Under the pieces are notes generated by a model. That model saw only the letters and a program-made list of their open reading frames with translations. It had not been told where the DNA came from and made no database searches. A stretch of DNA of 17,936 nucleotides from Xanthobacteraceae bacterium. Lineage in GTDB: Bacteria > Pseudomonadota > Alphaproteobacteria > Rhizobiales > Xanthobacteraceae. The position numbers were made by a program, and so were the translations under genes. The first letter of the stretch is position 1. Each line of letters starts with the position of its first letter. Below, piece after piece: positions 2,316 through 16,746 of this stretch. Location of the stretch: NCBI GenBank assembly GCA_030039655.1, contig JASHVC010000088.1, positions 1 through 17,936 on the forward strand, read 5' to 3'.

Positions 2316-2675
2316 ATGACTGATGATATTTTTGCCCAGCGTGTGGCCAAGGTGCGCCAGCGATTCATGTCGTCGCTGGAAGAGAAAATCGACAGCACCT
2401 ATGCCGCGCTTCCAGGTCTGGGCGGGACCGAACCACCCGCGGTTGCGGCCGTAGCGGAAGCCTACCGCCGCATCCACGGCATCGTCGGCATCGGCCGGAC
2501 GGTTGGCTTTCCGGCCGTCGGGACCGCGGCGCACGACGTGGAGGACGTGCTGCGTCCGCCTTATCACGCCGGGCGCGGGCTCACCGATGGCGAAGTCTCT
2601 CTCCTGAAAACATCCCTGCAAACTTTGCGCGAGGTGGCAACGCGCGAACTGCAGTCCTCCTCTCCCTCTCACTGA
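2316..2675 (+). CDS. Stand-alone histidine phosphotransfer (Hpt) protein
   Basis: This 119-residue soluble protein looks like a single Hpt domain, which carries phosphate from one receiver domain to another in a phosphorelay. The key segment RRIHGIVGIGRTVGF (about 51-65) matches the Hpt pattern H-x-(I/L)-x-G-x-x-x-x-x-G/A, with His54 as the predicted phospho-accepting residue. It is followed by a helix ending AAHDVEDVL, typical of the four-helix bundle. A GGGGGGA Shine-Dalgarno sequence sits 7 bases before the ATG. It is the first gene of the exopolysaccharide operon, and the BcsB-like gene begins about 10 bases after its stop. The convergent hybrid kinase has receiver domains but no Hpt domain, so this protein is a natural partner. 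The fold assignment rests on a short motif and is good but not certain. Confidence 0.72.
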   Translation: MTDDIFAQRVAKVRQRFMSSLEEKIDSTYAALPGLGGTEPPAVAAVAEAYRRIHGIVGIGRTVGFPAVGTAAHDVEDVLRPPYHAGRGLTDGEVSLLKTSLQTLREVATRELQSSSPSH

Positions 2676-2685
2676 CTGCTTGACA

Positions 2686-4860
2686 ATGACCAGGTGTATG
2701 CGCGTTATCCTTGTGCTCGTCTGGGCGCTCCTACTGATCCCAGCGCAGGCTTATTCGCAAAATCAAACGCAGGCCCAGCCGCCGACCCATGTTTTGGGCA
2801 GTCCAGTCTTGGGGCGCCCAGTCGTGGGGCATCCGTCTACGCCGCCGCAGACGCGGCCAAACGTTGCCAGCCGAGTGCCGGCGCCTGCCGCTCCCGTCGA
2901 GACGGTCGCTGCGGTCGCCGCTCCCGCAATTGCCGCACCCAAATCAAACTCCCTGGTGGCTGCAATCACGCTGGCCGACATCGGCTTCGTCAACGGTTTG
3001 CGTTTCGCCAATCTCGGCGGCCAGCACGAGCTTTATGTGCCGCTGCCGCAGGACAGCGACGTAGCAGCAACCAGCCTATCGCTGGTGCTTGACGATTTCA
3101 CCGCGCATGAGGCGAAGCGCAATCTCGAAGTGCAGGTCAACAATCGCACCGTCGCCGCCATCGTGCTGGACGGGAAGGGGAGAAACCGCGTCATTCAAGT
3201 GCCGCTGAGCGGCGCCAAGCCGAAAGACGGATATCTCAAGCTCGCGTTTCTGTATTCCGGCGCAGTCACGCCTGACCACTGCATCGACGTACGCTACGTG
3301 GGCGACAGCTTGATCATCAGGCCGGAGACGGCGGTGGAGGTCGACGTTGGCCCGGCAAGCCGGCTTGATGTTCCCACAACGGCAGCGCTGATGCCGCGCG
3401 ATGTGGCAGTGTTCTTGCCCAATCGTCACTTGGCGGCGACGGAGCTCGGGACCGCGCTCACCGTCGGGCGCGCGCTCATCAGCAGCGGGCGGCGGGTGAC
3501 TTTTTACGATGGCTACGATGCCATTGCGGAGCTCGCCAAGCGTGACGAAGCAGGCCGTTGGGCGCACGGCATCGTTCTGGTCGGCACCCTCACCGATGTC
3601 GGCGGCATCATCGACGGGCCGATCGCTACAGTGGCGGGCGACTTTCAGCAGTTCGGTCTGATTGATGCCATTCGCATTCGCGGTCTGCCGGCGCTGGTCA
3701 TCGCCGACGCGGATAGCGTGCGAGCCGCGCGCTTGTTCGGGACCCCTATGCTCGCCGCTACTCGCGGTGTGGCTGCGGCTTCGGTTGGGCAAGTGGCGCC
3801 GATCGATCTGCCCAAGGACCGGATCACTTTCGACCAGCTTGTGGTGCCGCCCGAAGAGGTCGAGGTGTTCGGCCGCGCTGAACTGAGTGCCGTCATCGAC
3901 GCGCGCCGGCTGCCAGGCGGAACCTATCCGACGCGGCTGTCACTGGATCTGATGGTGGCTCCCGACGGCGTCGGCGCCAAGGCCGTCGTCAGCGTGTTCG
4001 TCAATGACCGTCTGCTCGGCAGCACGGTCGCGGCGACCACCGAAGCAACGCATCTCGATCTACCCCTTCCGGATGGTCTTATCGGGACCGCCGCCAACAT
4101 TCGCGTCGTCGTGGAGCGTGACATCGCGCAAGGCGATTGCCGTTTCGGTCCACAGGGCTACCCGGCGCAAATTCTTGGATCCTCGGCCCTCCTGCTCGGC
4201 AGCGCCGGCGGCGCGGCGAGCGATTTCGCCGAACTCACGTCGCACTTCGCTCACGGGGTCGATATTTTGTTGCCCGCTGCTTCCGCCGATCAGCCCATCC
4301 GTGTGCTCGGCATTGTCGCGGAAGTAGCGAGCAACCTCTCGCCCGATACGGCAGCGCTCAACGTGAGCTATGTCGCGGCGAGCAGCGAGCCCGTGCCTGA
4401 GGCGCCGTTCATCGCCGTTAGCGATGTGCCGCCCGCCGGCGGATCGCCGCGCGTGAGCTTTGACCGCGGCCGTGTCGTCGTGGTTGATCCGTCCGGCCGC
4501 ACATTGCTGGATCTTGGCGGATTCTCCGGCGGTGCGGTCATGCAGGTTCTTGAAGCTAACAGCGAGCCCGGCCTGTGGATCAAACCGCTTTCGGCCAACG
4601 GGCAGGCGCCATCGCCGCCTGAGCTTCACCTCGATCACGGCGACGTCGCCTTCGTCGACGATAAGGGTGTGGCACTTGCCATGTCGACCGAGCACGACAC
4701 ACTGGTCAAAATCTCCTACCCGGATCAGGTGTCGTGGCTCACGGTGGCGGAGCGCTTCCGCTCCTGGATCATCGGTGCCCTTTGGCTCCTGGTGACAGCT
4801 GGTTTGTTGTTGACGCTGCAGCGCTTCTTCCGCAAGCGGCCAGCCAACCAAGCCGACTAG
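2686..4860 (+). CDS. BcsB-like periplasmic exopolysaccharide synthase subunit
   Basis: The 724-residue protein resembles BcsB, the membrane-anchored periplasmic partner of cellulose synthase that guides the emerging glucan. It has a signal peptide (about 1-22, ending AQA), a proline-rich linker with a short tandem repeat (about 35-65), a long beta-rich periplasmic part, and one C-terminal membrane helix (about 693-711) followed by a basic tail, which is the BcsB topology. Length is close to the usual 750-800. Two cysteines, C199 (PDHC) and C485 (GDCRFGP), lie in conserved-looking positions. The start is ambiguous: TTG 2680, ATG 2686 and ATG 2698 share the frame, and none has a strong ribosome binding site. 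The next gene is a family-2 glycosyltransferase, starting 2 bases after this stop. No bcsA with a PilZ domain, bcsC or bcsZ is present, so the polymer may not be cellulose. Confidence 0.83.
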   Translation: MTRCMRVILVLVWALLLIPAQAYSQNQTQAQPPTHVLGSPVLGRPVVGHPSTPPQTRPNVASRVPAPAAPVETVAAVAAPAIAAPKSNSLVAAITLADIGFVNGLRFANLGGQHELYVPLPQDSDVAATSLSLVLDDFTAHEAKRNLEVQVNNRTVAAIVLDGKGRNRVIQVPLSGAKPKDGYLKLAFLYSGAVTPDHCIDVRYVGDSLIIRPETAVEVDVGPASRLDVPTTAALMPRDVAVFLPNRHLAATELGTALTVGRALISSGRRVTFYDGYDAIAELAKRDEAGRWAHGIVLVGTLTDVGGIIDGPIATVAGDFQQFGLIDAIRIRGLPALVIADADSVRAARLFGTPMLAATRGVAAASVGQVAPIDLPKDRITFDQLVVPPEEVEVFGRAELSAVIDARRLPGGTYPTRLSLDLMVAPDGVGAKAVVSVFVNDRLLGSTVAATTEATHLDLPLPDGLIGTAANIRVVVERDIAQGDCRFGPQGYPAQILGSSALLLGSAGGAASDFAELTSHFAHGVDILLPAASADQPIRVLGIVAEVASNLSPDTAALNVSYVAASSEPVPEAPFIAVSDVPPAGGSPRVSFDRGRVVVVDPSGRTLLDLGGFSGGAVMQVLEANSEPGLWIKPLSANGQAPSPPELHLDHGDVAFVDDKGVALAMSTEHDTLVKISYPDQVSWLTVAERFRSWIIGALWLLVTAGLLLTLQRFFRKRPANQAD
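2791..2835 (+). repeat. Three 15-base tandem repeats in the BcsB-like gene
   Basis: Three consecutive imperfect 15-base units encode VLGSP, VLGRP and VVGHP in the proline-rich linker just after the signal peptide. Such an in-frame repeat can change copy number without breaking the frame. It probably forms a flexible spacer between the membrane surface and the folded periplasmic part. Confidence 0.6.
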
Positions 4861-4862
4861 CC

Positions 4863-6737
4863 ATGCCGTTGTCACCGTCCGATCGCGCCCTTGGCGATTT
4901 GCTGGTGGGCCGCCGTGTCATCGAACTACCGCAGCTCGACGAGGCGGTGGAGCTGGCGGAGCGATGGAACGTGCGTCTCGGCGACGCGCTGCTGTCACGC
5001 AACTGGATGGACCCGCGCAATTACTACGAAACCTACGCGCAGAATTTTGACTTGCCTTTCGTCGACCTCATTCGCGACCCGCCGGATCGCGACGTACTGA
5101 ATGAGGTCGACGCCGACCTCTATGCGAGCCGCCTCATTATGCCGTGGCGACGCAATGAGAATCGGCTGGTGATCGCCACGGCCGAGCCCGGACCCGAAAC
5201 CGTGCTGTTCGCGCGCGGCCGCTGGGGTAATGCCATCGAGTTCGTGGTGGCGTCGAAATTCGACATCGTGTTTACGCTGCAGACGGCGTTCGGCGACCAC
5301 TTGTCGCGCCGCGCGGTATTCGAGCTTGCCGAGCTCGATCCGCACATGTCGGCGCGCACGGTCGTTACCACCCCGCAACTGATCGCGGCCTACGGGTTAA
5401 TCAGTGCCGCCCTCGCCGGTTTGGCCATAGCGCCGATTACTACGCTGATCGCGCTGAATATCGCCTTTAGTATTTTCTACCTCGGGAATTTCATTTTTAA
5501 GGGGATTCTGGTCTCGATCGGCGGCGGTCGCTCGGCCGCGGCCGACGAAGCGATCGCCGTCGAGGCGCGCGCCTTGACCGAGGACGAGCTACCGGTCTTC
5601 ACCGTGCTGGTCCCGATGTTCGACGAGGCCGCCATGCTGCCGCGGCTGGCGCAGGCGTTGCGCGAACTCGACTATCCGCTTGCCAAGCTGGACATCAAAA
5701 TCGTGCTCGAGGCCAACGATGTCAAAACCATCGAGACGGCGCGGTCTCTCGGTCTCGAAGGCGTTTTTGAAATCATCATCGTCCCGCACTCCGAGCCGCA
5801 GACCAAGCCGAAAGCCTGCAACTTCGCGCTGCGCTTTGCGCGCGGCGAATATCTGGTCATCTACGACGCCGAGGATCGGCCAGAACCCGATCAGTTGCGC
5901 AAGGTGGTGGCGACCTTCCGTCGTTCGCCGCCTAACACGGCCTGCCTGCAATGCCGCCTCAACTACTACAACGTGAAGGAAAACTGGCTCACGCGCATGT
6001 TTACGCTCGACTATGCGCTGTGGTTCGACCAGGTGCTGCCTGGGCTAGAGCGTCTCGGCATGCCGATCCCGCTCGGCGGTACGTCAAATCATTTCCGCAT
6101 CAGTGTTTTGCGTGAATTGCACGCTTGGGATCCGTTCAACGTTACCGAAGACGCCGATCTCGGTATTCGCATCGGACAAAAGGGCTACAGGGTCGGCGTT
6201 GTCGACTCGACCACATACGAGGAAGCTTGCTGCCAAGCCGGCCAGTGGCTCCGCCAGCGTTCGCGCTGGATCAAAGGCTACATGCAGACGCTTTTGGTGC
6301 ACACGCGGCGGCCGCTGTATTTCGCGCGCAGTGTCGGTGTGCTCGGCTTGTTCGGCTTTGTATTTTTCATCGGCGGCACGGTGCTTGCGGGCCTCCTTAA
6401 TCCACTGTTTTGGCTGTTTTACATCATCTGGCTGATCGCCGCCGCGGCAAATTTGGACGTGATCTTTCCCCACGCCCTTTTGTACCTCTGTCTGTTCAAT
6501 CTGCTCGCGGGGAACGGCGCATTCACTTATTTGGTCATGCTGGCGCCGATCCGGCGCGGGTTTCTCGAGCTCATCCCTTACAGTTTCAGCCTGGCGGGAT
6601 ATTGGGTGTTGCTGTCTGCGGCTGCCTATAGGGCTCTTTGGCAGCTCTTGCGCGACCCCTTCTTGTGGGAAAAGACGCCGCACGGTTTGTCGCAGCATAC
6701 CGACGCACCACTCACCGAAGCCGAAAGCGCGGCATGA
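4863..6737 (+). CDS. MshEN domain-family 2 glycosyltransferase, exopolysaccharide synthase
   Basis: The 624-residue protein is a processive-type inner-membrane glycosyltransferase expected to polymerise a nucleotide sugar and extrude the chain. Residues 8-61 carry two tandem motifs, LGDLLxGxxVxxxxxLxxAV and RLGDALLSRxWxxxxxYxxxxAQ, about 29 residues apart, which match the MshEN (GspE N-terminal) module known to bind c-di-GMP in MshE. Two membrane helices follow (about 173-215). The GT2 domain then has D335xxD338 (YDAED), TED at 428-430 and QRSRW at 465-469, the signature of processive synthases. Four or five more helices lie between 490 and 590. ATG 4863 sits 2 bases after the BcsB-like stop with no clear ribosome binding site, suggesting coupling; the frame is open further upstream but would overlap the neighbour. 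It resembles XagB/NfrB-type enzymes more than BcsA, as it has no PilZ domain. The sugar cannot be deduced. Confidence 0.88.
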   Translation: MPLSPSDRALGDLLVGRRVIELPQLDEAVELAERWNVRLGDALLSRNWMDPRNYYETYAQNFDLPFVDLIRDPPDRDVLNEVDADLYASRLIMPWRRNENRLVIATAEPGPETVLFARGRWGNAIEFVVASKFDIVFTLQTAFGDHLSRRAVFELAELDPHMSARTVVTTPQLIAAYGLISAALAGLAIAPITTLIALNIAFSIFYLGNFIFKGILVSIGGGRSAAADEAIAVEARALTEDELPVFTVLVPMFDEAAMLPRLAQALRELDYPLAKLDIKIVLEANDVKTIETARSLGLEGVFEIIIVPHSEPQTKPKACNFALRFARGEYLVIYDAEDRPEPDQLRKVVATFRRSPPNTACLQCRLNYYNVKENWLTRMFTLDYALWFDQVLPGLERLGMPIPLGGTSNHFRISVLRELHAWDPFNVTEDADLGIRIGQKGYRVGVVDSTTYEEACCQAGQWLRQRSRWIKGYMQTLLVHTRRPLYFARSVGVLGLFGFVFFIGGTVLAGLLNPLFWLFYIIWLIAAAANLDVIFPHALLYLCLFNLLAGNGAFTYLVMLAPIRRGFLELIPYSFSLAGYWVLLSAAAYRALWQLLRDPFLWEKTPHGLSQHTDAPLTEAESAA

Positions 6738-8266
6738 CGGACACTACGGCGAGCACGATAGCATCGCGGCCACGGGGCGTCTTACGCGTGCTCGCGGTCG
6801 CGCCTGTTGGTCTGGCCACGTTCGTGATGATTTTGCTGCTCGCGGCTTTTGCCGTGCGTCTTGGACTTGTGGCCGACGACACGTTGCGCCTTTGGGCTGG
6901 TGCCAGCACCGCTGCCGACGGTGAAGTGCCGATTGGCCGGATTGTCGCGGCCTATCCGACTTTGCCATTCACAATCACCACGCTGGTGGCGTGGATAGCT
7001 CCGGCGAATGCACCTGCGCCGGCGCTCGTGGCAGCTGCGCTACTCGCCGTTTTCGCGGTGGGTTGCTTTCTCATGCTGCGCAAAGCCGGCCTGCCACTCC
7101 TTGCCGCCTCTGTCATGACCGTCCTGATCGCCTTTCATCCGGTGTTGTTGCGCGCGGTGGTGGCTGGACCCGGTGATATGTTTCTTGCCGTGTTCCTGCT
7201 GATGCTCTGTCTTGGGCTTTACGACCTGCGGGGACGCAGCGACACCTCCGAAGTGATGCACGTCGGGATCGCGCTCATGGCGCTTGCCTTTTCGCATCCG
7301 ATGGGCGCTGCCATCGCCTTCGCGATCATTCCCTTCTTGGCTTTCGTGGTTCGTCCCAGCCTGGTGGCCCACTCGGCCTTCAACGTGACCGTCGCGCTGG
7401 TTTTTCCGACCTTCTTCGCGATTGCGGCATTCAGCTATGTGGCTTGGGTCTTTCCGGGCGACGGCTGGACCTTCTTCGCCGCCCCGGCACAAAGCCTGGC
7501 CATATGGACCGCTTCCGTGGAGCAACTGCTTGGGGACCGACTGCTCGCTATTCCAGCACTTGAGGCAGGCATCACGATGGCGCTCGCTCTCGCTCTCGGC
7601 GCTCCCGCCGCCGTTGTGCTCGTGATCATGGTGCGCCGGCGCCGGCCCCTGGTGGTTCCGGCTCTGGTGTTCGTGGCCGCTGTCCTTGCTGCGACGGCAA
7701 TCAGCGTGTTGAGCGGCTTGTTTGGTGACCCGGCCGCGCTGGTCGTTGCAGCACCTGTACTCGGGGTAGCCGTCCTGACGCGCATACCGGTTGCCCGCGA
7801 GCGGCTCGCTCTCGTCATTACGCTGTTGGCGCTCGGATGGTTGGGCGGATTCTGGAGCCTCGCGTTGGCCGACCCCGTCACCGTGAGCACGCTACGCGCC
7901 GACTTTGCGCCTAACGCCAACGGTTCGCGTGTGGAGGCGCTTGCCGCCGGCGGAGCTTCCGCCGGCCACGACGGTGTCCTAGTCGACGTCAACAACTCAC
8001 CTGCTTTCGTGCTGGGTCGCGGCAACGCGGCCGGACTTTTCGGTCCGCAGAGCGAAGCATTCGCCCTCGCTCTCATGTTTGCGCGCGTCGATGCGCCATT
8101 CGTTGCTGTACCCGATCCGCTGAGCGCGACGGGCGCCAACGATCGGCTCGATAAGGCCTTTCCGCTGCTGTTCAGCACCGGGTTGCCCGGTTATCGCGTC
8201 ATATACCAAAACAATACTTGGCGATTGTTTGCGCGTGTTAGCAACAAAATCGTTTCTCGTCAGTAA
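6734..8266 (+). CDS. Twelve-helix membrane protein, possibly GT-C type
   Basis: This 510-residue protein has about 12 hydrophobic helices between residues 19 and 377, then a C-terminal soluble part of about 130 residues. The first loop after helix 1 contains Asp48-Asp49 (LVADDTLRLW) followed by AYPTLPFTITTLV. Acidic residues here and a YPxL segment recall GT-C glycosyltransferases (ArnT/PMT-like), which use lipid-linked sugars, and the C-terminal domain fits that architecture. I cannot confirm the family, and it could instead be a transporter or an unrelated scaffold. Its ATG overlaps the stop of the glycosyltransferase gene as ATGA, so translation is coupled and a direct role in making or modifying the same polymer is likely. 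The frame is open upstream, but that part overlaps the glycosyltransferase and is not expected to be translated. Confidence 0.72.
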   Translation: MTDTTASTIASRPRGVLRVLAVAPVGLATFVMILLLAAFAVRLGLVADDTLRLWAGASTAADGEVPIGRIVAAYPTLPFTITTLVAWIAPANAPAPALVAAALLAVFAVGCFLMLRKAGLPLLAASVMTVLIAFHPVLLRAVVAGPGDMFLAVFLLMLCLGLYDLRGRSDTSEVMHVGIALMALAFSHPMGAAIAFAIIPFLAFVVRPSLVAHSAFNVTVALVFPTFFAIAAFSYVAWVFPGDGWTFFAAPAQSLAIWTASVEQLLGDRLLAIPALEAGITMALALALGAPAAVVLVIMVRRRRPLVVPALVFVAAVLAATAISVLSGLFGDPAALVVAAPVLGVAVLTRIPVARERLALVITLLALGWLGGFWSLALADPVTVSTLRADFAPNANGSRVEALAAGGASAGHDGVLVDVNNSPAFVLGRGNAAGLFGPQSEAFALALMFARVDAPFVAVPDPLSATGANDRLDKAFPLLFSTGLPGYRVIYQNNTWRLFARVSNKIVSRQ

Positions 8267-8323
8267 CGTTTGCGGAATTAAAATAAAAATTGCAAGGCGT
8301 TAGTATAAACACGGATTACTTTG

Positions 8324-9289
8324 ATGCGAATACTTCTGATCGACGATACAGAAGACTCCCGCGATTTGACCGAAGCGGCGCTTTTGTCGGCAGGCTACAC
8401 CGACATTGCGACCGCCGCGTCGGGCTGGGAGGCGCTAAAAATCCTCGATATCGGCGGCGCCGCCGAGGAACGCGCGCCGATTGACGTCGTGCTGCTCGAC
8501 ATCGTGATGCCGGAGATGGACGGCGTCGAATGCTGCGCACGCGTGCGCAACGACGCACGCTATACCGATTTGCCGATCATCATGGTGACGGCCCTCGACG
8601 ATATGGACTCGTTGGCCAACGCGTTCGTGGCCGGCGCCACCGACTACATCACCAAGCCGGTGAATCGCGTGGAGCTGGTGGCGCGCGTGCGCGCGGCGCT
8701 GCGGCTCAAGCAGGAACTCGACCGCAGACAGGCACGCGAGCGCGAATTGCTGAGCTTTGTGTCGAACTGGGGGGACCGTCGCGCCACGGCATTGATCGAC
8801 GAGACGACCGGGCTGTTCGCGGGTGAAGCGGCCGAGGCTTATTTGACCGCCGCTTCCAGCGGCGAGAACGGCGGGACCGTTTCAATCCTGGCACTCATGC
8901 TCGACCGTTTCGATGTCTACCGGACGAAATACGGAGATGGTGCAGCCCGAAAGGTGCTGGCACAAGTGGCACGCGCCGTGCGCCGGCTCGGAGCCACCGT
9001 TGGAATTGTGGCCGCCGCCTATCGAAACGGAACCATTGTTCTGGTCGCGCCCGAACTGGAAGCCAGCCCAGCGCGCGATCTCGGGGAAACTCTGCGGGCG
9101 ACGGTTGCAAAGCTGCGTGTGCCGAATTCCGAGGCGGTCGCCGCCGACCACGTCACCGCCAGTGTTGCAGCCATCACCGGTCGCGTGAAGCAGGCGGTTG
9201 ATCGCGTGCAGTTGCTGACACAGGCGATCGCCCGAGTGCAGGACGCCGCGGGCGCGGGGGGCAACAGGGTTCTGGCGCAGAGCATCTGA
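8324..9289 (+). CDS. Response regulator with degenerate GGDEF-like output domain
   Basis: Residues 1-125 are a canonical receiver: acidic pair D7-D8, phosphorylation site D59 (VVLLDIVMPEMDG), T89 and K111 (ITKPVN). A helical linker (about 128-148) leads to a domain at about 155-310 that follows the GGDEF layout: DETTGL at 159-164 in place of DxLTGL, then LDRFDVYRTKYGDGAARKVL in place of the usual D-x-D-x-F-K-x-x-N-D-x-x-G-H stretch. The active-site loop that should read GGDEF is RNGTI (234-238), so diguanylate cyclase activity is very unlikely. The role may be protein interaction or nucleotide sensing. ATG 8324 (preceded by TTG 8321) has only a weak GGAT ribosome binding site. The gene is 57 bases after the membrane protein gene in an AT-rich spacer, so it may have an additional promoter. 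It is a plausible final acceptor for the Hpt protein. Confidence 0.85.
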   Translation: MRILLIDDTEDSRDLTEAALLSAGYTDIATAASGWEALKILDIGGAAEERAPIDVVLLDIVMPEMDGVECCARVRNDARYTDLPIIMVTALDDMDSLANAFVAGATDYITKPVNRVELVARVRAALRLKQELDRRQARERELLSFVSNWGDRRATALIDETTGLFAGEAAEAYLTAASSGENGGTVSILALMLDRFDVYRTKYGDGAARKVLAQVARAVRRLGATVGIVAAAYRNGTIVLVAPELEASPARDLGETLRATVAKLRVPNSEAVAADHVTASVAAITGRVKQAVDRVQLLTQAIARVQDAAGAGGNRVLAQSI

Positions 9290-9304
9290 CCGCGTTGGCG
9301 TGGG

Positions 9305-9309
9305 GGAGG
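9305..9309 (+). promoter_or_regulatory. Ribosome binding site fixing a TTG start
   Basis: GGAGG lies 7 bases before TTG 9317 within a purine-rich run. The TTG opens directly into a good signal peptide and no in-frame ATG follows before it, so the TTG start is well supported. Confidence 0.75.
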
Positions 9310-9316
9310 GGGAGTT

Positions 9317-10111
9317 TTGAAGCGTTGCGTTGTGTTTGTATTGGCTGCGCTGTCGGTGCCTTCCGCAGCGTGGGCGAGCGCATGGACGCTGCCGGAAGGC
9401 ACGGGGCAATGGCTTGCAACGCTTGACGCCAGCACGTCGACCGAATTTTGGGAAAAGGACGGCGCTCTCGGCCCCACGCCGCGTTACAACAAGGTCGACG
9501 TGGACGTGCTCGTTGAATACGGCATCACCGATCGGCTGACCTTCCTCGTCGACCCTGGGCTTCAGCACATCGACATCGCGTCTCCTGTCAGCGCCCAGCG
9601 CACCGGTCTCGACTATACCGAGTTCGGCGCGCGCTACGCGTTCATTCAAGATCCGACCTGGGTCCTGTCCGGCCAGGCGACGGTGCGGATTCCGGGCACC
9701 TTCGATACCTCGAACCCGGCCGCGATCGGTTACACCGATGTGGAATCCGATCTTCGCCTGCTGCTCGGCCACTCCTTCGATATCGCTGGCTTCGCGTCCT
9801 TTTTCGACGTCGAGGTAGCCGAACGCGTACGGACCGCCGGTTACCCAAGCGAATTTCGCGTTGATGCGACGCTCGGGACGTATGTTGCTCCACGCTGGCT
9901 CTTGCTTCTGCAAGGCTTCAATGTGGTGTCGGAAGGAGCCGGCAACGTCGACTACACGGGCGGCAGTTATGATTATGAGAAGGTGCAATTGAGCGCGGTC
10001 TACGCGCTCACGCCGACGTGGTCGCTGCAAGGCGGTGGCTATGTTACCTATGCGGGCCGCAACGCGCTGGAAGAAAATGGCCTGATCTTCGGTGTGTGGC
10101 ACCGATTTTAG
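9317..10111 (+). CDS. Outer-membrane beta-barrel protein of the exopolysaccharide operon
   Basis: This 264-residue protein begins at TTG with a strong ribosome binding site. It has a signal peptide (about 1-20, AWA before SAW) and then alternating amphipathic beta-strands rich in aromatic residues. It ends WHRF, with the terminal phenylalanine recognised by the BAM machinery. The mature N-terminus (AWTLPEGTGQW) and a pattern such as VEYGITDRLT recall XagA-type proteins encoded beside family-2 glycosyltransferases in Xanthomonas, and also PF13557-like barrels; I recall this similarity and have not tested it. It is the last gene of the operon, 27 bases after the response regulator gene. It has no TPR repeats, unlike BcsC, so if it is the export pore it must work without a periplasmic scaffold of its own. 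Alternatively it is an accessory anchor for the polymer. Confidence 0.8.
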   Translation: MKRCVVFVLAALSVPSAAWASAWTLPEGTGQWLATLDASTSTEFWEKDGALGPTPRYNKVDVDVLVEYGITDRLTFLVDPGLQHIDIASPVSAQRTGLDYTEFGARYAFIQDPTWVLSGQATVRIPGTFDTSNPAAIGYTDVESDLRLLLGHSFDIAGFASFFDVEVAERVRTAGYPSEFRVDATLGTYVAPRWLLLLQGFNVVSEGAGNVDYTGGSYDYEKVQLSAVYALTPTWSLQGGGYVTYAGRNALEENGLIFGVWHRF

Positions 10112-10129
10112 CAGTCGCCAGCACCCGAA

Positions 10130-11149
10130 CTATTCACAGGCTCCTGTCCATGCGCAGCGGAGAGTACTCTCCGCCGGCTTGCCCTGGACGGTGAAATCGG
10201 TGTTCGTCGGGCCACCGGCATCCGGATCCGTCAACCAGCACCAGATCAGAGTGCCGCGGATAGAAGGTCGCTGAAGTGATGCGAGCCAATCGGTAAGTAC
10301 GTCGGCTTGCAGCATCGGGTCCGGCGCGGCTGCCCGCTCCTCCGGGCTTTCCCACGGCTTTGCTGCAGCACCTTGCGCCGAACGCAAGCCGACCTCCCCG
10401 ACAATGATGGATTTCCCAAGGTGTGAGGCGAGTGCGTCAAGGCGATCAGCAACGGCAGTCATCTTGGCACGTCGCCCGGTTCGATCGTCGTCGGCGCCGA
10501 GGGGAGGATAGAGCGAAACCCCAACGGCATCGAGGCTGCGCCAGAACGGCACTTCTTCGGCCTCCTCCGTATTATGCGCGACATAAAACAGACGGCCTGA
10601 ATAAATGTTGCGGGCGCTGCTAATAAGCTCGTTCCACTCGGGTCGTTGCGAAGTCTTCGCAAGTTCGGTGCCGACGACGAGCGCCTCTGCGTGCTCCTCC
10701 TCGGCAACGCGAGCGACGCGATCCACTTCGGTTTGATAATCTGCGAACCATTGCCGCCAATCTGCTTCGGAATTCATGACAACGGCGCCGGCCCAGCTTT
10801 GCGGCACCCAGACGTGCGGCTTTACCACGACGGCAAGTCCAAGCTCATGTGCGTCGCGGATCGCGGCACGGAGCTCGTTGTCCGGCATATCACTGCCGCG
10901 AACGAGGTTAGGGCTTGCCGGGTTTGCTTGCCAGAAAAATGGCACGACCGCGATTGCGCTTGCGCCAAGCCGCTTGACGTTAGCCAGCGAAAGCTTGGCC
11001 GATGGGCTGCCGAAGGGATGACTCGGCAAAGCGATAACGTTGAAGCCGTCGAGCCGCTGCCCACTTGGCGGCTCCGAGTGCGCACCCGGTGCAGCCAACG
11101 TGCCGACGAAAAGCGCCCCGGCTATCGCCAACCGAAGCCATCGCCGCAT
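10130..11149 (-). CDS. Secreted GH113-like glycoside hydrolase
   Basis: The 339-residue protein has a signal peptide (about 1-25, AHS) and a TIM-barrel glycoside hydrolase pattern like family GH113, whose known members include beta-mannanases. Markers are the N-terminal GFNVIAL strand, the VVVKPHVWVP strand (about 107-116), E162 in VVGTEL as candidate acid/base, Y214 in VSLYPPL, E252 in IIVGEVGL as candidate nucleophile, and the closing WLTDPDAGGPTNTDFTVQGKPA-like block (about 305-326). Both catalytic glutamates are present, so it should be active in the periplasm or outside the cell. Its ATG lies 3 bases after the stop of the response regulator gene, making it the third gene of the kinase operon. 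It ends 18 bases from the convergent barrel gene. By analogy with BcsZ or PgaB it may trim, release or edit the polysaccharide made by the opposite operon. The substrate is unknown. Confidence 0.8.
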   Translation of the reverse strand: MRRWLRLAIAGALFVGTLAAPGAHSEPPSGQRLDGFNVIALPSHPFGSPSAKLSLANVKRLGASAIAVVPFFWQANPASPNLVRGSDMPDNELRAAIRDAHELGLAVVVKPHVWVPQSWAGAVVMNSEADWRQWFADYQTEVDRVARVAEEEHAEALVVGTELAKTSQRPEWNELISSARNIYSGRLFYVAHNTEEAEEVPFWRSLDAVGVSLYPPLGADDDRTGRRAKMTAVADRLDALASHLGKSIIVGEVGLRSAQGAAAKPWESPEERAAAPDPMLQADVLTDWLASLQRPSIRGTLIWCWLTDPDAGGPTNTDFTVQGKPAESTLRCAWTGACE

Positions 11150-11152
11150 GCA

Positions 11153-11539
11153 TCAAGCGCTTTGCAGCGCCTCCAGATGGTTGCGCACCGTGAAGGCGAG
11201 CGTCATCGGGTCGAATGGTTTCGAAATGACTCCCTGAGCGCCAAGCGCAATAAATTGTTCAACCTCGCGCGGCTGGGCGCGTGCGGTCATGAAAAATACT
11301 GGAACGGCAGAGGTCCGCGGATTCTTGCGCAAATGCGAGAGGGTTGTGGGGCCGTCCATGCGCGGCATCATCACGTCGAGTAAGATCAATGACGGCGACC
11401 ATTCAGCCACGGCAGCGAGCGCTTCATCGCCTGACGCGCATGAGCGTATCTGGAAATCGGGATTGAGGCCAAGCGACAAATCGACGATTTCGCGAATATC
11501 GGGTTCGTCATCGACATGAAGGATGCGGATTGTACTCAT
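11153..11539 (-). CDS. Single-domain response regulator (CheY-like)
   Basis: The 128-residue protein is a lone receiver domain: acidic pair in HVDDEPD, phosphorylation aspartate in LILLDVMMPRMDG, T in FFMTAR and K in VISKPFD, with no output domain. The frame stays open further upstream, but ATG 11537-11539 is the right start: it overlaps the kinase stop as ATGA, and a strong Shine-Dalgarno sequence (GGAGGAGG, reading the minus strand over 11544-11551) lies 4 bases before it. It would act by protein contact, either as phosphate shuttle or sink in the kinase-Hpt relay or as an allosteric partner of the synthase. It is followed almost directly by the GH113-like gene. Confidence 0.92.
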   Translation of the reverse strand: MSTIRILHVDDEPDIREIVDLSLGLNPDFQIRSCASGDEALAAVAEWSPSLILLDVMMPRMDGPTTLSHLRKNPRTSAVPVFFMTARAQPREVEQFIALGAQGVISKPFDPMTLAFTVRNHLEALQSA

Positions 11540-13440
11540 GCAACCTCCTCCCGGCTGTATGAGGATCTCAGCATCAGCCGGTCGTGGACAGCGGTGACAA
11601 GGTCGTCGAGGCAAGCCCGCGATTTATCCAGGCGCGCCTCGACTTGCGCATTTGCGACAAATTCCGGTGGATGGCCCGAAAATATGATGACCGGGATAGC
11701 CGAGCCGTCGTGCCGCCGCAGTTCCGGGAGCAGGTCCAGCCCGGATACTGGACCCACCGCCACGTCGAGCACCGCAAGGTCAAACTGATAGGCAAGCAGC
11801 GCCCGGCGCGCCTCTTCGACGGACCCTACCGAAGTGATGTTTGCCATGGGTTCGAGCGTGGATGCCACGAGATCGAGTGCTTCGCGGTCGTCGTCGACGT
11901 GCAGGATCGAAGGTCGCCGGCACACCCCCGGCGATACGGCGTTGTCGAGGGTCTGTGCTAGTTTATAGGCATCGATCGGCTTCGCGATCCACTTGAAAAT
12001 GTTGAGCTTGGACGCCTCTGGTTTGTCGCCGACACGATCGGAAGAAGCGATGACGATCGGCGTTTTGTAGATTTCCGGCTGTTCGCGGAACTGGCGGATG
12101 AGGCCGATGCCGTCGGCATCCGCTAGCTCGAAGTCGACAACGATTGCCGTATAGAAATTGGAGCGTGCCCGGGCGATCGCGTCATCGGCGTTGTGGGCGA
12201 AGTCAGTAGAAAACCCGAGCGGCCGTAACTCCTCGCGCAACGCCAAGGCAGCGTCGGGATCGTCCTCGCAAAACAGGATGCGGATTGCATCGGGTGAGCG
12301 CTCGGCATCGATTTCGCGTTCGGCAATTTGTGTCCAGTTCGGCAGATCGACGTTGAAGGCGGTGCCGCCGCCGTCGGCGTCAGCGAAGCTGACCTCGCCT
12401 CCCAACCGCACAACGATCTCGCGGACGATGCTGAGTCCGAGGCCCGTCCCTCCCTTTTGCCGCGCATCGGTGGCATCGGCTTGTGCGAACTTCTCGAAGA
12501 CGCGTGGCTTGAACTCGGCCGGGATGCCGCTGCCGTGGTCGCGGATCGATATGCGCATGAGGCCGGCCCGAAGCTCGGTCGCAATTATGACCTCTCCTCC
12601 TTGGGGAGAGAACTTGATCGCATTCGACAACAGGTTGGTGATCACCTGCGCTAATCGGTCCGGATCGGCCGGCACGTTGCCGTGAAGTGAAGCGGGGTCG
12701 AGGCGCACCCGCACGCCGAAGCCGTCGGCGTAGGCGCGATTGGCTTCGATGACCTGTTCGACGAGGGCCAATACATCGACGCGTTTGAAATTGAAGATGA
12801 CCTGGCCGGACTCGATCTTCTCGATATCAAGAATGTCGTTGATGAGCCGGACCAGCCGTTTGCTGTTGCTGTGCGCGATACTTAGGAGCCGGACGGCGCC
12901 TTCCGGCAAGGTCCCGGCTGCCCCACCGAGGAGCAGCCCGAGTGAACCGGAAATAGAAGTCAACGGTGTTCGCAGTTCGTGGCTCACGGTTGAAACGAAT
13001 TCGTCCTTCACTCGCTCCATACGTTTGGGCTCGGTGATGTCGACGATGACGCTGAGCACATACAGCCCGTCATGGGCGTCGATAGGATTGAGCCACACTT
13101 CGATAGGGAACTCGGTTCCATCGCGACGGAGCCCGAACAGCTCGCGGTTCGGCTGCGCACGCCGCGCTTGCGGATCTTCAGCAAATGCGGCGCGCTGCTT
13201 GTGATATTCGCCGTGCAAACGCCGAGTGATCAGGACTTCAATAGGCTGGCCGATGAGGTCGTCGCACGGGTAACCGAACAGCTGCTCTATCGCGTTATTC
13301 GCCAACACTATGGTACCGGCAGTGTCGGTCATCACCATGCCGCTGGGACAGGCTTCGACCGCCAGTCGAAATTTCTGCTCGGCAAAGCTTTCGTCTAACC
13401 GGTCACGGGTCGTATTGGCGATGCCGACAACGGTTCCCAT
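11536..13440 (-). CDS. Soluble hybrid histidine kinase, PAS-HisKA-HATPase-REC-REC
   Basis: This is a 634-residue hybrid sensor kinase. Residues 22-140 form a PAS domain (EACPSGMVMTDTAGTIV start). HisKA follows, with the phospho-accepting H154 in VSHELRTP. The ATPase domain has the N box around N273 (TNLLSNAIKFS), G1 at D301-G305 and G2 at 330-338 (GGTGLGLSI). Receiver 1 (about 386-500) has D393/D394, phospho-aspartate D436 and K487. Receiver 2 (about 510-622) has D516/D517, D559, S588 and a less regular K606 without the following proline. No membrane segment is present, so it senses a cytoplasmic signal, perhaps through a PAS ligand. It has no Hpt domain; the nearest is the stand-alone Hpt gene at the head of the opposite operon. 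It is the first gene of a three-gene operon with the response regulator and the GH113-like hydrolase. Confidence 0.94.
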   Translation of the reverse strand: MGTVVGIANTTRDRLDESFAEQKFRLAVEACPSGMVMTDTAGTIVLANNAIEQLFGYPCDDLIGQPIEVLITRRLHGEYHKQRAAFAEDPQARRAQPNRELFGLRRDGTEFPIEVWLNPIDAHDGLYVLSVIVDITEPKRMERVKDEFVSTVSHELRTPLTSISGSLGLLLGGAAGTLPEGAVRLLSIAHSNSKRLVRLINDILDIEKIESGQVIFNFKRVDVLALVEQVIEANRAYADGFGVRVRLDPASLHGNVPADPDRLAQVITNLLSNAIKFSPQGGEVIIATELRAGLMRISIRDHGSGIPAEFKPRVFEKFAQADATDARQKGGTGLGLSIVREIVVRLGGEVSFADADGGGTAFNVDLPNWTQIAEREIDAERSPDAIRILFCEDDPDAALALREELRPLGFSTDFAHNADDAIARARSNFYTAIVVDFELADADGIGLIRQFREQPEIYKTPIVIASSDRVGDKPEASKLNIFKWIAKPIDAYKLAQTLDNAVSPGVCRRPSILHVDDDREALDLVASTLEPMANITSVGSVEEARRALLAYQFDLAVLDVAVGPVSGLDLLPELRRHDGSAIPVIIFSGHPPEFVANAQVEARLDKSRACLDDLVTAVHDRLMLRSSYSREEVA

Positions 13441-13632: not shown

Positions 13633-14646
13633 TCAATGCCCGCCGGAACTAACGCCGCGCCTTTGTCCTCTTGCGGCTTTTCTTCTCGACCTGGCGCGTC
13701 CGTACGCGAGCGCTGGTGCGGTCTTGCGTGACGGCTTTTGCGCCGGTTGCGGCGCGGGGGCTGCCGCGTGGCTCGGCCCGCGCGACATGGGCCCCCACCA
13801 GTTTGAGCGCGTGTCGTCACCCCAGACTTTGGGCCGCTGCGGCCGGTCCTGGTGCCAGGGACGCGGCTCGAAGAAGCCAAGATCCTCGTCGAACATCTGG
13901 TCCAAGTCGCAGAAGAACTCGATCGTCACGCCGTCCGGGTTCTTGTGGTAGATCGCGATGTTGTGGCCGATGATGTGGCGGATCGGGCCCCAGGTGAGCA
14001 GAATGTCGTTGCGCGCCAACAGATCGCAGGCGCGCTTGATGTCGGACCAATCGCGGACCTCGAATGCGATGTGATGGATTGAAGTCTTGGGGTCACGAAG
14101 GAAATTCACCGTGTGATGGTCGCGGCTGCAGCGCAGGAAGGCGAAGAAATCGCCGCGCCAGTCAGACACGCGAAAACCGAGCGTGTCGCAATAGAACTTC
14201 ACCACGCCCTGCACGTCCGGGCACTGATAGGCGATATGGCCGAACTTAAGCGGCATGACTCCGTTGAAGTTCGAATCCTCGTCCGCGAAAGCGAAGTCGG
14301 AGAAAATCTCCAGGGTAGTTCCCTTCGGATCCTTGAAGGCGATTGCCTCGCGGATCCCCGGCGTGATGTCGGTCCGTCGCTCGCTCTTGATGCCGGCCTT
14401 CTTCAGCCGTGAGGTGAGTTCGCTGAGGTCACTGCCGGGCGCGACCTGGAATGACAGGCGCGGGGCCTCGACCTCGCTGGCGCGCTCGAGCACTATCGCC
14501 TCTACACCCGATTTCGTGGCCAAAATGGCTCGGTTCTTGTCGCGTGCTGAGAGGGTCAGGCCGACGATGCGGGTGAAGTAGTCGATCATCCGCTCGATGT
14601 CGGGAGTCGTTAGCGTCGAGTGGCCTGCGCGCTTGATTTGCAGCAT
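13633..14646 (-). CDS. Two-domain VOC protein, extradiol-dioxygenase-like
   Basis: The 337-residue protein has two vicinal-oxygen-chelate domains (about 1-116 and 132-246), the arrangement of type I extradiol ring-cleavage dioxygenases. In the second domain the Fe(II)-ligand positions are filled: H137 (FGHIAY), H192 (HHIAFEV) and E243 (GVTIEFF). H228 and Y233 (GHNIAIYHKNPDG) sit where catalytic second-sphere residues are expected. It probably opens a catechol-like ring, but the substrate is not readable. A tail of about 75 residues rich in Pro, Ala and Arg follows, which is unusual for the family. The ATG has an AGGAAG ribosome binding site 7 bases upstream, and the gene lies 27 bases after the fumarylacetoacetate-hydrolase-family gene, its likely pathway partner. 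The next gene downstream, the kinase, is 192 bases away and seems separately transcribed. Confidence 0.85.
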   Translation of the reverse strand: MLQIKRAGHSTLTTPDIERMIDYFTRIVGLTLSARDKNRAILATKSGVEAIVLERASEVEAPRLSFQVAPGSDLSELTSRLKKAGIKSERRTDITPGIREAIAFKDPKGTTLEIFSDFAFADEDSNFNGVMPLKFGHIAYQCPDVQGVVKFYCDTLGFRVSDWRGDFFAFLRCSRDHHTVNFLRDPKTSIHHIAFEVRDWSDIKRACDLLARNDILLTWGPIRHIIGHNIAIYHKNPDGVTIEFFCDLDQMFDEDLGFFEPRPWHQDRPQRPKVWGDDTRSNWWGPMSRGPSHAAAPAPQPAQKPSRKTAPALAYGRARSRRKAARGQRRGVSSGGH

Positions 14647-14673
14647 TGAACGCTTCCTGGACTCTCGCAGAGA

Positions 14674-15591
14674 TTACGCCGGCACGCGGGCCGGCTGTTC
14701 GCTTTCAACTGCGCCGATCTGATGCGCCCGCACTTTGACCGTCAATTCCCCAAGCGCCGGCGCCGAACGGCAAACGATGACGTCGCCAGGTTTTACCGGG
14801 CCGACACCGTCCGGTGTTCCGGTGTAGAGCAGATCGCCTGGATAGAGTGAGTAGAATTCGGACGCGAATTCCATGAGGCGGCGGCAACTGTAAATGAGTT
14901 GGCCGGTATTGCTGTCCTGCCGCTTCTCGCCGTTGACAGTGAGGCTGATTGGGACCGCGTCGGGATCGGGAATCTCGTCTGCGGTGACGAACCACGGGCC
15001 GAGCACGGCGTAGCCGTCAACCGATTTGCGAAAGCTCCTGTCCTCGCGACCACGGACGGTCATGTCGAGGCCAAGGCAATAGCCGGCGACGTGATCGAGC
15101 GCCTTGGCCTGCGAAATGTCGCTGCCGGCTGTGCCGATTACCATCACCAGTTCGACCTCGTGATCGGTGCGGCGTTCAGGAAAGCGGACCGGTACGCCTT
15201 CCGACGGTCCGACGAGGGCGGAATTGGCTTTCAAGAACATTCCAGCTTCAAGGATTTTCGAGGAGTGCCCGCGCACGATCTGTGAGCCCGGTTGTTGCGA
15301 CGCCTTGGCCATCTCCTCGATATGCGCCTGATAATTTGTCGGTGCGCAGGTCAATTTGGTCGGCCGCGCCACCGGCGGGAGCAACTTGACTGACGCGATC
15401 GGTTTGCCTGCCGCTTTGTCCGCCATGCGTTCGATGCGTTCGCGCCATTGCGGCAGCGACGCAATGACGGCGTCGCCTTTCATCGCATAGGGGGCGGATT
15501 TGCGAATTTCCCTCTGCGCTTCGGTCACGTCGTGCACCATGTTTCCGCGCACCACGCCCATGCGGTCGTCATCGTATCGGCAAAGCTTCAT
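14674..15591 (-). CDS. Fumarylacetoacetate hydrolase family protein
   Basis: The 305-residue protein belongs to the FAH superfamily, which hydrolyses, isomerises or decarboxylates 2-keto acids late in aromatic or sugar-acid breakdown. The metal-binding triad is visible as E145 and E147 (DHEVELVMVIG) and D176 (GLDMTVRG), and the conserved YTGTPDGVGPVKPGD block lies at about 256-270. The N-terminal 75 residues form the usual small lid domain. ATG 15589-15591 has a good Shine-Dalgarno sequence (GGGAGAGG on the minus strand). It lies 30 bases after the solute-binding protein gene and 27 bases before the dioxygenase-like gene, so all three are probably one operon in which this enzyme handles the ring-cleavage product. 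Acylpyruvate hydrolase, HpcE-type isomerase or 2,4-diketo-3-deoxy-rhamnonate hydrolase roles are all possible. Confidence 0.9.
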   Translation of the reverse strand: MKLCRYDDDRMGVVRGNMVHDVTEAQREIRKSAPYAMKGDAVIASLPQWRERIERMADKAAGKPIASVKLLPPVARPTKLTCAPTNYQAHIEEMAKASQQPGSQIVRGHSSKILEAGMFLKANSALVGPSEGVPVRFPERRTDHEVELVMVIGTAGSDISQAKALDHVAGYCLGLDMTVRGREDRSFRKSVDGYAVLGPWFVTADEIPDPDAVPISLTVNGEKRQDSNTGQLIYSCRRLMEFASEFYSLYPGDLLYTGTPDGVGPVKPGDVIVCRSAPALGELTVKVRAHQIGAVESEQPARVPA

Positions 15592-15621
15592 AAGCCTCTC
15601 CCTCTATTTTCCTTCGCAGCC

Positions 15622-16677
15622 TCAACTGCGCCCGAAAAGTTCATTGTAGGTCTTCTGCCATTTCCGCTCATCGGCGCCGGTGAACAAGACTGGCACGATC
15701 TTCATCGACTTGAGCATGTCGCCGACTTCCGGCGGATTGGTCTGTACATCGGGCCGCGTGGGAATGCGGCCCTTCTGGGTCATGAAGATCTCAGCCTCCC
15801 GGCTAAGCACGAAATTTTCCGCAAGTTTTGCCGCATTGGAATGCGGCGCTAGCACGTTGACGCCCACCGACCCGAAAATCAGCGCCACTGGATTGAGCAG
15901 CCAGAAATCAGTCGGCGCACCGGACATTTTGACGTTGAGCGTGAGCGGCAGGAAATTGTTGAGCGCGAGCCAGTATTCGCCGGACCCAACGGAGCGCGCA
16001 AGGGCAAGGTGGCCGTCGGTGATGACGGGGTCGAGGGCGGCAACGATGTTCTTTATCAGCGCACGGCCGCGGTCTTCGCCATAAGCGCCGAAAATCGCCG
16101 CCAGCCATTCGTCGTCGGTGCCATCGATGGCGACTTTTCCAACCCACTCCTTGTGAGCGGGAAATTCATCGTAGCTCTTCGGCAGGTCGGCCTTGTTTAC
16201 GAATTTGGTGTTGTAGGCCGGCGCGTTGTAGTTAGCGTAGACGCCATACCAGCGGCGGCCGACGTCACGCGCCTCGGCCATGAGGCCGCTCGCTTCCGAC
16301 GGGTCGAACTGGATGAGGCTTTCAGGCGCGATCTGAGATACGGTGGTTGTGAGCGCGACATCCCAGGTGCGTTGCCGCGCACGATTTTCGATGGCGATGC
16401 GCGCCATGATCTGGGTATCCGAGGAGCGCACGTAGCTCACTTTGACGCCGGTCGCGTCCTCGAAGGTCTTCCAAAGCGGCAGCGCCTCCTGTTCGTTCAT
16501 CGACCCGTAGACGGTGAGTGCTCCCTCGGTTTTGGCGGCGCTCAGTAGATCGGGAACGATCCAGGAATGCGGCGCAGCATCTTCTGCGCCGGCTGGCGTG
16601 TGCGAGAGCGCAAGTGCAAGCACCGCAGCAACGGCATTGCCTGCGATCGTCAGCGTCGCCGCACTCCGCTTGCGCAT
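15622..16677 (-). CDS. Periplasmic solute-binding protein (ABC type, Fe3+/polyamine class)
   Basis: The 351-residue protein has a signal peptide (about 1-31, AGA before ED) and the fold pattern of type 2 solute-binding proteins. Features are an early GALTVYGSMNEQEALPLWKTFEDATGVKV segment, a central crossover region, and a late domain around LNPVALIFGSVGVNVLAPHSNAAKLAENFVL. This class includes iron, thiosulfate and polyamine binders, and many members with unknown ligands occur in Rhizobiales. I chose ATG 16675-16677 over a TTG 24 bases upstream because the mature signal peptide begins there and GGAGG lies just before it. No ABC permease or ATPase gene follows; the next genes are the FAH-family hydrolase and the dioxygenase-like gene, so it probably delivers their substrate to transporter subunits encoded elsewhere. 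The ligand is unknown. Confidence 0.87.
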   Translation of the reverse strand: MRKRSAATLTIAGNAVAAVLALALSHTPAGAEDAAPHSWIVPDLLSAAKTEGALTVYGSMNEQEALPLWKTFEDATGVKVSYVRSSDTQIMARIAIENRARQRTWDVALTTTVSQIAPESLIQFDPSEASGLMAEARDVGRRWYGVYANYNAPAYNTKFVNKADLPKSYDEFPAHKEWVGKVAIDGTDDEWLAAIFGAYGEDRGRALIKNIVAALDPVITDGHLALARSVGSGEYWLALNNFLPLTLNVKMSGAPTDFWLLNPVALIFGSVGVNVLAPHSNAAKLAENFVLSREAEIFMTQKGRIPTRPDVQTNPPEVGDMLKSMKIVPVLFTGADERKWQKTYNELFGRS

Positions 16678-16746
16678 TTCCTCCACTCCGCACGGAGCCA
16701 AGGTCGGCGCCGTCTCCGCGAGGTTAGCAAGCAGGTGAGGGCGAGC

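Follow-up and report, generated by a model that had tools for sequence, protein, structure and literature searches.

Described relatives of the locus

The core of the locus discussed here has already been published as a candidate stalk cluster of iron-oxidizing bacteria. A bcsB-xagB-xagC-xagD cluster in Ferriphaselus R-1 was proposed to serve iron stalk formation (Kato et al. 2015, PMC4643136), a Zetaproteobacteria pan-genome paper of 2021 uses the names sfz1-6 and sfb1-4 (PMC8250860), and a paper of 2025 keeps calling these stalk genes putative (PMC12607638). Our locus lies on contig JASHVC010000088.1 of a Xanthobacteraceae bacterium (assembly GCA_030039655.1), the whole 17,936-nucleotide stretch of which is referred to as the window. 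One operon encodes a histidine phosphotransfer (Hpt) protein, a BcsB-like subunit, a synthase joining an MshEN domain to a family 2 glycosyltransferase (GT2), a membrane protein, a response regulator composed of a receiver (REC) and a degenerate GGDEF domain (REC-pseudo-GGDEF) and an outer-membrane barrel; the convergent one encodes a hybrid histidine kinase, a lone receiver and a GH113 hydrolase. We consider the gene system itself well supported, while its polymer and its control are inferred. Our preferred reading, to which we give even chances, is that of an sfz/sfb ('xag-like') synthase of a mannan-like exopolysaccharide, mainly governed by a local phosphorelay that ends in the REC-pseudo-GGDEF protein.

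An earlier note on this DNA had claimed a new linked unit, without saying whether it was already described; newness of the core is not supported, since the core is that of the published sfz/sfb cluster of stalk-forming iron oxidizers. As in the sfz/sfb sets of Mariprofundus and Ferriphaselus, the window carries BcsB, MshEN-GT2, a membrane protein of about 500 amino acids and a hydrolase, with homologues of sfb1-4 all present. However, the four described genes stand in order on one strand, whereas in the window only the first three keep this order and the hydrolase gene runs the other way, with two additional genes in between. Ferriphaselus sp. R-1 is represented in our locus set by contig L059, which, to judge from the contig name and gene order, should hold DM08DRAFT_00347-00350. 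Identity to the window amounts to 26% for BcsB (651 columns), 47% for GT2 (613 columns), 22% for the membrane protein (541 columns, E 2e-15) and 42% for the hydrolase (308 columns), and the Ferriphaselus core proteins match MshEN and GH113. Unlike the window, L059 has no match to Hpt, kinase, REC or REC-pseudo-GGDEF within 9.5 kb, and its strict MshEN positions are better kept (5 + 4 of 7 + 7). In the excerpts of PMC8250860 available, Sfz3 is of unknown function, Sfz4 is called family 10, and the N-terminus of the GT2 protein Sfz2 is read as similar to EpsE of type II secretion. What is new, then, is the relay-bearing variant, since Hpt, kinase and receivers are added in many alphaproteobacterial versions, with eroded strict residues for cyclic di-GMP (c-di-GMP) in the window; the third core gene gains a fold-level reading and the fourth a family-level one. 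Among the openly licensed PMC papers listed by our searches, and judging by those listings, none describes an alphaproteobacterial version with the relay.

The xag genes of Xanthomonas serve biofilm formation, and c-di-GMP affects their transcription (PMC3528676, PMC3609779); an rpfG mutant forms less biofilm once xagA or xagB is deleted (PMC3609779). The beta-1,4-mannanase ManA is implicated in the dispersal of xag-dependent biofilm, the polymer being unknown (PMC3528676). Close homologues of the window GT2 carry the source-given name XagB. Unlike the window, xagABCD, compared by description only, has no BcsB named in the excerpts of these two papers. The operon NfrB-NfrA-YbcH of E. coli (PMC8669469) resembles the window in having GT2 and MshEN in one protein and its own outer-membrane exporter; it differs in the TPR repeats of NfrA and in its three genes, among which the excerpts name no BcsB, GT-C or GH113 protein. 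XagABC and NfrAB had been named in the earlier note as the nearest relatives, and an XagB-type GT2 is indeed the nearest named one; NfrB places GT2 first and MshEN C-terminally, which is the reverse of the window.

Three further systems share some features with the locus. The BcsA/B-like pair of C. difficile combines GT2, BcsB and GH113, as does the window, yet belongs to a Gram-positive organism and is accompanied by a WecB homologue and a deacetylase (PMC7710045). BcsE, a catalytically dead receiver-GGDEF pair serving cellulose synthase, is comparable to the window REC-pseudo-GGDEF protein, although the decay is reversed, BcsE having a degenerate receiver and an intact RxxD (PMC7439463). The Bcs cellulose synthase shares the BcsB subunit; however, no PilZ domain was detected by Pfam or NCBIfam in the nine cluster proteins, and so none on the GT2, which agrees with the earlier separation of the locus from bcs.

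Conservation of the synthase core

We mapped gene order with profiles in 80 loci from named genomes, fetched with the GT2 query and representing the best 80 of at least 583 confirmed relatives; the window adds one row (81 in total), and for each feature the rows with enough flank were counted. The GT2 query (P0001) was translated from GTG 4734 and is 43 residues longer than the protein starting at ATG 4863, and the query P0002 starts 32 residues early. The nearest named locus among the matches listed is L001, from a Xanthobacteraceae metagenome-assembled genome (MAG), with a GT2 81% identical.

The membrane-protein gene lies directly 3' of GT2 in 79/79 rows, and BcsB directly 5' of it in 67/74. 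Of the seven rows without BcsB in this place, six belong to an Acetobacteraceae/Devosia branch and the other is a Bryobacteraceae MAG; L073, L075 and L076 have BcsB one gene further up, before the barrel. REC-pseudo-GGDEF follows the membrane protein in 51 of 75 rows, the barrel is within 9.5 kb of GT2 in 47 of 64, and Hpt stands just 5' of BcsB in 28 of 71, window included. GH113 is present within 9.5 kb in 22/59 testable rows (29 of all 81), and a kinase match above 400 bits within the same distance in 27/81, one of these being a Desulfobulbaceae MAG. Kinase and REC accompany GH113 on the opposite strand in the window, L001 and L003, and follow REC-pseudo-GGDEF on the synthase strand in 13 Rhodobacterales-type loci.

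Such conservation over 80 loci excludes a chance arrangement, and because of this synteny we regard the genes as one linked system. The earlier note had claimed as much; its gene order, strands, domains and coordinates likewise agree with the open reading frames and Pfam matches. It had also held that its claim of a new linked unit would fail if the two operons did not co-occur in related genomes. By that yardstick the claim is refuted in part: in the closest relatives they do co-occur, but GH113 is linked in only the above fraction of rows, and neither the position nor the strand of the kinase is constant, so that the core is fixed and the second operon a variable addition to it.

The GT2 motifs are invariant in 81/81 rows (D, E and D of DAED; E and D of TED; Q, R and W of QxxRW), and by Pfam MshEN (105-188) precedes GT2 (288-573). 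Against PF03170 the window BcsB scores 20.6 bits (E 1.7e-4), that is, 0.4 bits below the cut-off of 21, and 31 of 33 BcsB family members match this profile at E 0.01 or better. Pfam recognizes neither the window barrel nor the window membrane protein; AlphaFold2 models give the former an outer-membrane barrel (pLDDT 93.1) and the latter a GT-C fold (pLDDT 93.4). Candidates for an acid in the first periplasmic loop of the GT-C-fold protein are Asp48-Asp49 in the window, and D or E occurs at positions 47-53 in 50 of 59 members.

By analogy with BcsAB, the GT2 would polymerize a sugar chain at the inner membrane, and the BcsB-like subunit would guide it through the periplasm. To judge from its fold, the GT-C protein might attach a side sugar that is delivered on a polyprenyl carrier, whereby a candidate function is offered for the third gene of the iron-stalk cluster, whose function is unknown in the literature. 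Fold and position point to the barrel as the putative exporter of the chain. As a side observation, in L069, L073, L075 and L076 of the Acetobacteraceae branch the barrel gene is immediately 5' of GT2, an order that would fit xagA-xagB.

The loci come from alpha-, beta- and gammaproteobacteria, one Desulfobulbaceae MAG and one Bryobacteraceae MAG, and the hosts include Sulfitobacter, Salipiger, Novosphingobium and Croceicoccus. These four genera are not known as iron oxidizers; therefore, taken by itself, the cluster may indicate stalk formation poorly. One locus, L010, is labelled Candidatus Eremiobacterota, yet its GT2 falls within the alphaproteobacterial clade, a case of either mis-binning or recent transfer. 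A search of plasmids with the GT2 returned 11 records, one of them above 50% identity, namely the Hyphomicrobiales plasmid of L031. The cluster there (L031:1-21857, Hyphomicrobiales UR115) has a GT2 that groups with Azospirillaceae, and this grouping, together with the plasmid location, suggests transfer by plasmid.

Possible control by c-di-GMP or by a phosphorelay

To score MshEN we used seven positions per half (Arg, Leu, Gly, Gly, Leu, Leu and Gln; motif from PMC5013675). The window keeps 3 + 3 of 7 + 7: motif I has Ala, Arg, Val and Ala at the Arg, Gly, Leu and Gln positions, and motif II has Asn, Tyr, Tyr and Asn at the Gly, Leu, Leu and Gln positions. Ten gamma-, beta- and deltaproteobacterial and Bryobacteraceae rows scored in the same way keep 4-7 per half, nine of them 5-7, the other being Ferriphaselus with its 5 + 4. 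The GG[DE]EF motif is absent from 52/52 REC-pseudo-GGDEF proteins of the cluster, window included (two unrelated REC-GGDEF matches, in L060 and L073, were left out, the latter of which has GGDEF). TVGI occupies the place of the RxxD I-site in the window, and RxxD is present in 10 of the 52.

The phospho-acceptors present a different picture. The Hpt histidine is kept in 35/35 aligned matches (in five cases something other than a separate gene 5' of BcsB), the receiver Asp of REC-pseudo-GGDEF in 52/52, the phospho-Asp and Lys of the lone receiver in 33/33 aligned best receivers near GT2, some perhaps unrelated, and the kinase histidine in 31 of 32, one row having a gap. The earlier note had proposed joint control by c-di-GMP and phosphorylation. 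Such dual control is conceivable: the phospho-acceptors are kept, but the strict c-di-GMP residues of the window are eroded as described above, even if a looser MshEN motif (see below) still fits in part.

No membrane domain is found among the Pfam matches of the window kinase. In ten linked proteins scanned the sensor parts vary (PAS only, MASE4, 5TM-LYT, GAF, Cache-like, MASE1-CHASE); the kinase core is kept with different sensor modules in L001, L003, L012, L019, L035, L040 and L064. Two linked kinases, L019:5455-7854 and L040:195-4769, end in an Hpt-like domain just below the Pfam cut-off; L040 additionally has a separate Hpt, and L019 has none 5' of BcsB.

Gene content, synteny, predicted folds, the kept catalytic and phospho-acceptor residues and the loss of strict c-di-GMP-site residues are what the analysis shows, and our preferred reading is built on them. 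According to it, in the alphaproteobacterial branch of the window the hybrid kinase would pass phosphate through Hpt to the lone receiver and to REC-pseudo-GGDEF, and the latter would act on the synthase by protein contact, not by making or sensing c-di-GMP. Were this true, the synthase would have traded second-messenger control for protein control. A more elaborate version, which we consider unlikely, would be that the MshEN pocket decayed and the kinase-Hpt-receiver relay took over, with phosphorylated REC driving a dead GGDEF that presses on MshEN-GT2 and with GT-C decorating the emerging chain in the same complex.

Possible, if clearly not our first choice, is that the synthase is still controlled by c-di-GMP, which would be bound by the divergent MshEN, by the pseudo-GGDEF in the manner of BcsE or PelD, or by both, the relay only tuning this binding or expression. 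The MshEN domain is after all recognized in the window by PF05157 (42.9 bits versus a cut-off of 23.1), by NF053729 (31.4 bits, below the cut-off of 38) and by the solved MshE domain 5htl (E 1.6e-7). A looser published motif is kept at 8 and 10 of 11 positions, as against 9-11 in the ten comparison rows, the misses being Gly in both halves and Arg and Gln in motif I. Because this motif is partly kept and PF05157 lies well over its cut-off, weak c-di-GMP binding may persist. Furthermore, in BcsE a tandem of degenerate REC and GGDEF domains uses RxxD to bind c-di-GMP and binds a partner protein as well, an example of a dead REC-GGDEF in the service of a synthase (PMC7439463), and 6/7 Azospirillaceae-type loci keep both RxxD on the pseudo-GGDEF and an MshEN sum of at least 7. 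In the window, on the other hand, RxxD is replaced and four key positions are substituted in each MshEN motif. Overall, of 49 rows scored for both sites, 37 have neither RxxD nor an MshEN sum of 7 or more, six have both, three RxxD only and three MshEN only.

The history of these changes was traced on a GT2-domain tree (quick method, midpoint root) of 76 of the 81 rows, the partial L006, L047, L058, L061 and L063 being left out and Hpt scored as present in 29 loci and the window. The Azospirillaceae-type branch with the better-kept sites falls outside the large alphaproteobacterial clade holding Hpt. We counted three state changes for the motif, three for REC-pseudo-GGDEF, six for Hpt and four for RxxD; for MshEN erosion versus REC-pseudo-GGDEF, two independent pairs on supported branches favour neither direction. 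Such a topology is compatible with a stepwise change, seen on few branches, in which a phosphorelay took over control from c-di-GMP.

The hydrolase, the polymer and the layout of the window

The window GH113 aligns with solved beta-1,4-mannanases, and both catalytic glutamates are kept in 29/29 rows. Its Glu252 aligns with a Glu for which the second mannanase sequence listed, presumably a catalytic mutant, has Ala. GH113 holds only endo-mannanases, and a ManNAc-rich (N-acetylmannosamine) polymer was inferred for a similar gene set (PMC7710045). In our locus the enzyme would cut or release the chain, which suggests a backbone of the beta-mannose type or a glucomannan; a GH113 with an intact glutamate pair hints at a mannose-type polymer, and such a polymer is our best guess. 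The nature of the Xag polymer and the substrate of the mannanase that disperses the biofilm were raised as questions in a 2012 paper (PMC3528676). That GH113 is linked to synthases named XagB suggests a possible common answer, a mannose-type polymer.

The linkage was followed in a sample of 289 genomes of the class to which the L001 genome belongs, with G001 as the centre of the draw. GH113 gave some match in nine of them (six at E <1e-20), and GT2 was found in 22 at E 1e-100, four of these above 800 bits. All four belong to the six strong-GH113 genomes, with the two genes within 4 kb each time; two of the four (G001, G009) were already in the locus set. The other 18, with weaker GT2 matches, have no strong GH113 and two weak ones (G159, G263). 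We also scanned the genomes of 50 of the 80 loci, a choice weighted towards loci without linked GH113: the family is present in 21, linked in 10, and in the other 11 found not in the locus stretch itself but elsewhere or on another contig. In L035 and L060 it is near the end of another contig; therefore, true linkage may exceed 22/59. Sulfitobacter dubius DSM 16472 (L054) has the relay linked but yielded no GH113 in its genome, and Novosphingobium sp. PC22D (L040), a cultured environmental strain, possesses every part. In 15 loci lacking linked GH113, inspection by eye, with no profile scan, recognized no replacement hydrolase.

Somewhat unlikely, and compatible with any reading of the control, is that the polymer is cellulose or another glucan and that GH113 acts on plant or other foreign mannan. 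The BcsB homology and the 37 of 59 rows with unlinked GH113 would agree with this, but the nine proteins scanned include no PilZ, GH8 or TPR porin, GH113 stands right after the membrane-protein gene in gamma- and betaproteobacterial loci, and it is tightly linked in the sampled genomes. The Rhizobium glucomannan synthase gene gmsA belongs to an upp-like cluster. It was also considered in connection with GH113 and was set apart by description only, no BcsB/MshEN-GT2 layout being mentioned in the excerpts on it. That the phosphorelay is a mere neighbour serving the hydrolase side or some other process, with REC-pseudo-GGDEF alone working with the synthase, is very unlikely: GH113 does have kinase and REC beside it in three rows (the window, L001 and L003), the sensor modules do vary between loci, and many loci lack Hpt, kinase and REC or have them elsewhere, but Hpt is the immediate neighbour of bcsB in the window and 29 loci, and in the 13 Rhodobacterales-type loci kinase and REC stand on the synthase strand.

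Returning to the phosphorelay-controlled mannan-like synthase, we should list what weighs against it besides the looser MshEN motif, the PF05157 score and the unlinked GH113 genes. Hpt is not directly 5' of BcsB in 43 of 71 rows, and the kinase profile would fit unrelated kinases as well. Both the erosion of the motif and the gain of Hpt are confined to a few branches, too few for a statistical statement on their association. GH113 is absent from 29 of the 50 locus genomes, a set weighted towards loci without it. Finally, nine of 59 GT-C members lack an acid at positions 47-53, and no gene for a polyprenyl-phosphate glycosyltransferase or for sugar-nucleotide synthesis was recognized among the 15 window proteins scanned.

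Table 1. Features of the locus (coordinates refer to the window)
Feature	Coordinates	Strand	Details
Hpt histidine phosphotransfer protein	2316..2675	+	119 aa, His54; PF01627 31.1 bits
BcsB-like periplasmic co-synthase subunit	2686..4860	+	ATG 2686, TTG 2680 possible; PF03170
MshEN-GT2 processive polysaccharide synthase, XagB/Sfz2-like	4863..6737	+	ATG 4863, 624 aa; PF05157, PF13632, others
Stretch with scored MshEN key residues	4887..5045	+	3 + 3 of 7 + 7 kept
GT-C-fold membrane protein, XagC/Sfz3-like, candidate periplasmic side-chain glycosyltransferase	6734..8266	+	predicted fold
REC-pseudo-GGDEF response regulator	8321..9289	+	ATG 8324; PF00072 90 bits, PF00990 40.5 bits
Outer-membrane beta-barrel, signal-peptide-like N-terminus, resembles COG4313 channel	9317..10111	+	predicted fold
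Gap separating the convergent operons, 18 bp	10112..10129		no terminator-like site in scan
GH113 hydrolase, mannanase-type, signal-peptide-like N-terminus	10130..11149	-	PF22612 138 bits; Glu162, Glu252
Single-domain receiver (REC)	11153..11539	-	PF00072 89.5 bits
Hybrid histidine kinase PAS-HisKA-HATPase-REC-REC	11536..13440	-	Pfam domains

The genes of GT2 and the membrane protein overlap by 4 bp (Table 1), and several neighbours have 4-bp overlaps or a spacing of 2-4 bp. In 14/14 rows of convergent layout, window included, the operons meet tail to tail at distances from -26 to +38 bp. A consensus scan of the window gave eight promoter-like sites versus 2.9 expected, one of them (2175-2203, a consensus match only) 5' of Hpt on the same strand, and no terminator-like site between the operons. 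Such an arrangement induces us to speculate that read-through would produce RNA antisense to the opposing operon and that the balance of synthase versus hydrolase might be set by that route.

The cluster is flanked by a tRNA-Gln and by a gene group for glyoxalase, FAH-type hydrolase, solute-binding protein and MFS protein. Beside the tRNA-Gln, at 254-1667, there are two open reading frames of lower G+C without a Pfam match over the cut-off. Both in the window (13633-16701) and in L001 (L001:13381-16055), the kinase gene is succeeded by those for glyoxalase, FAH-type hydrolase and solute-binding protein, with 76-86% identity; they are an unrelated catabolic set, the synteny of which is common to the window and L001.

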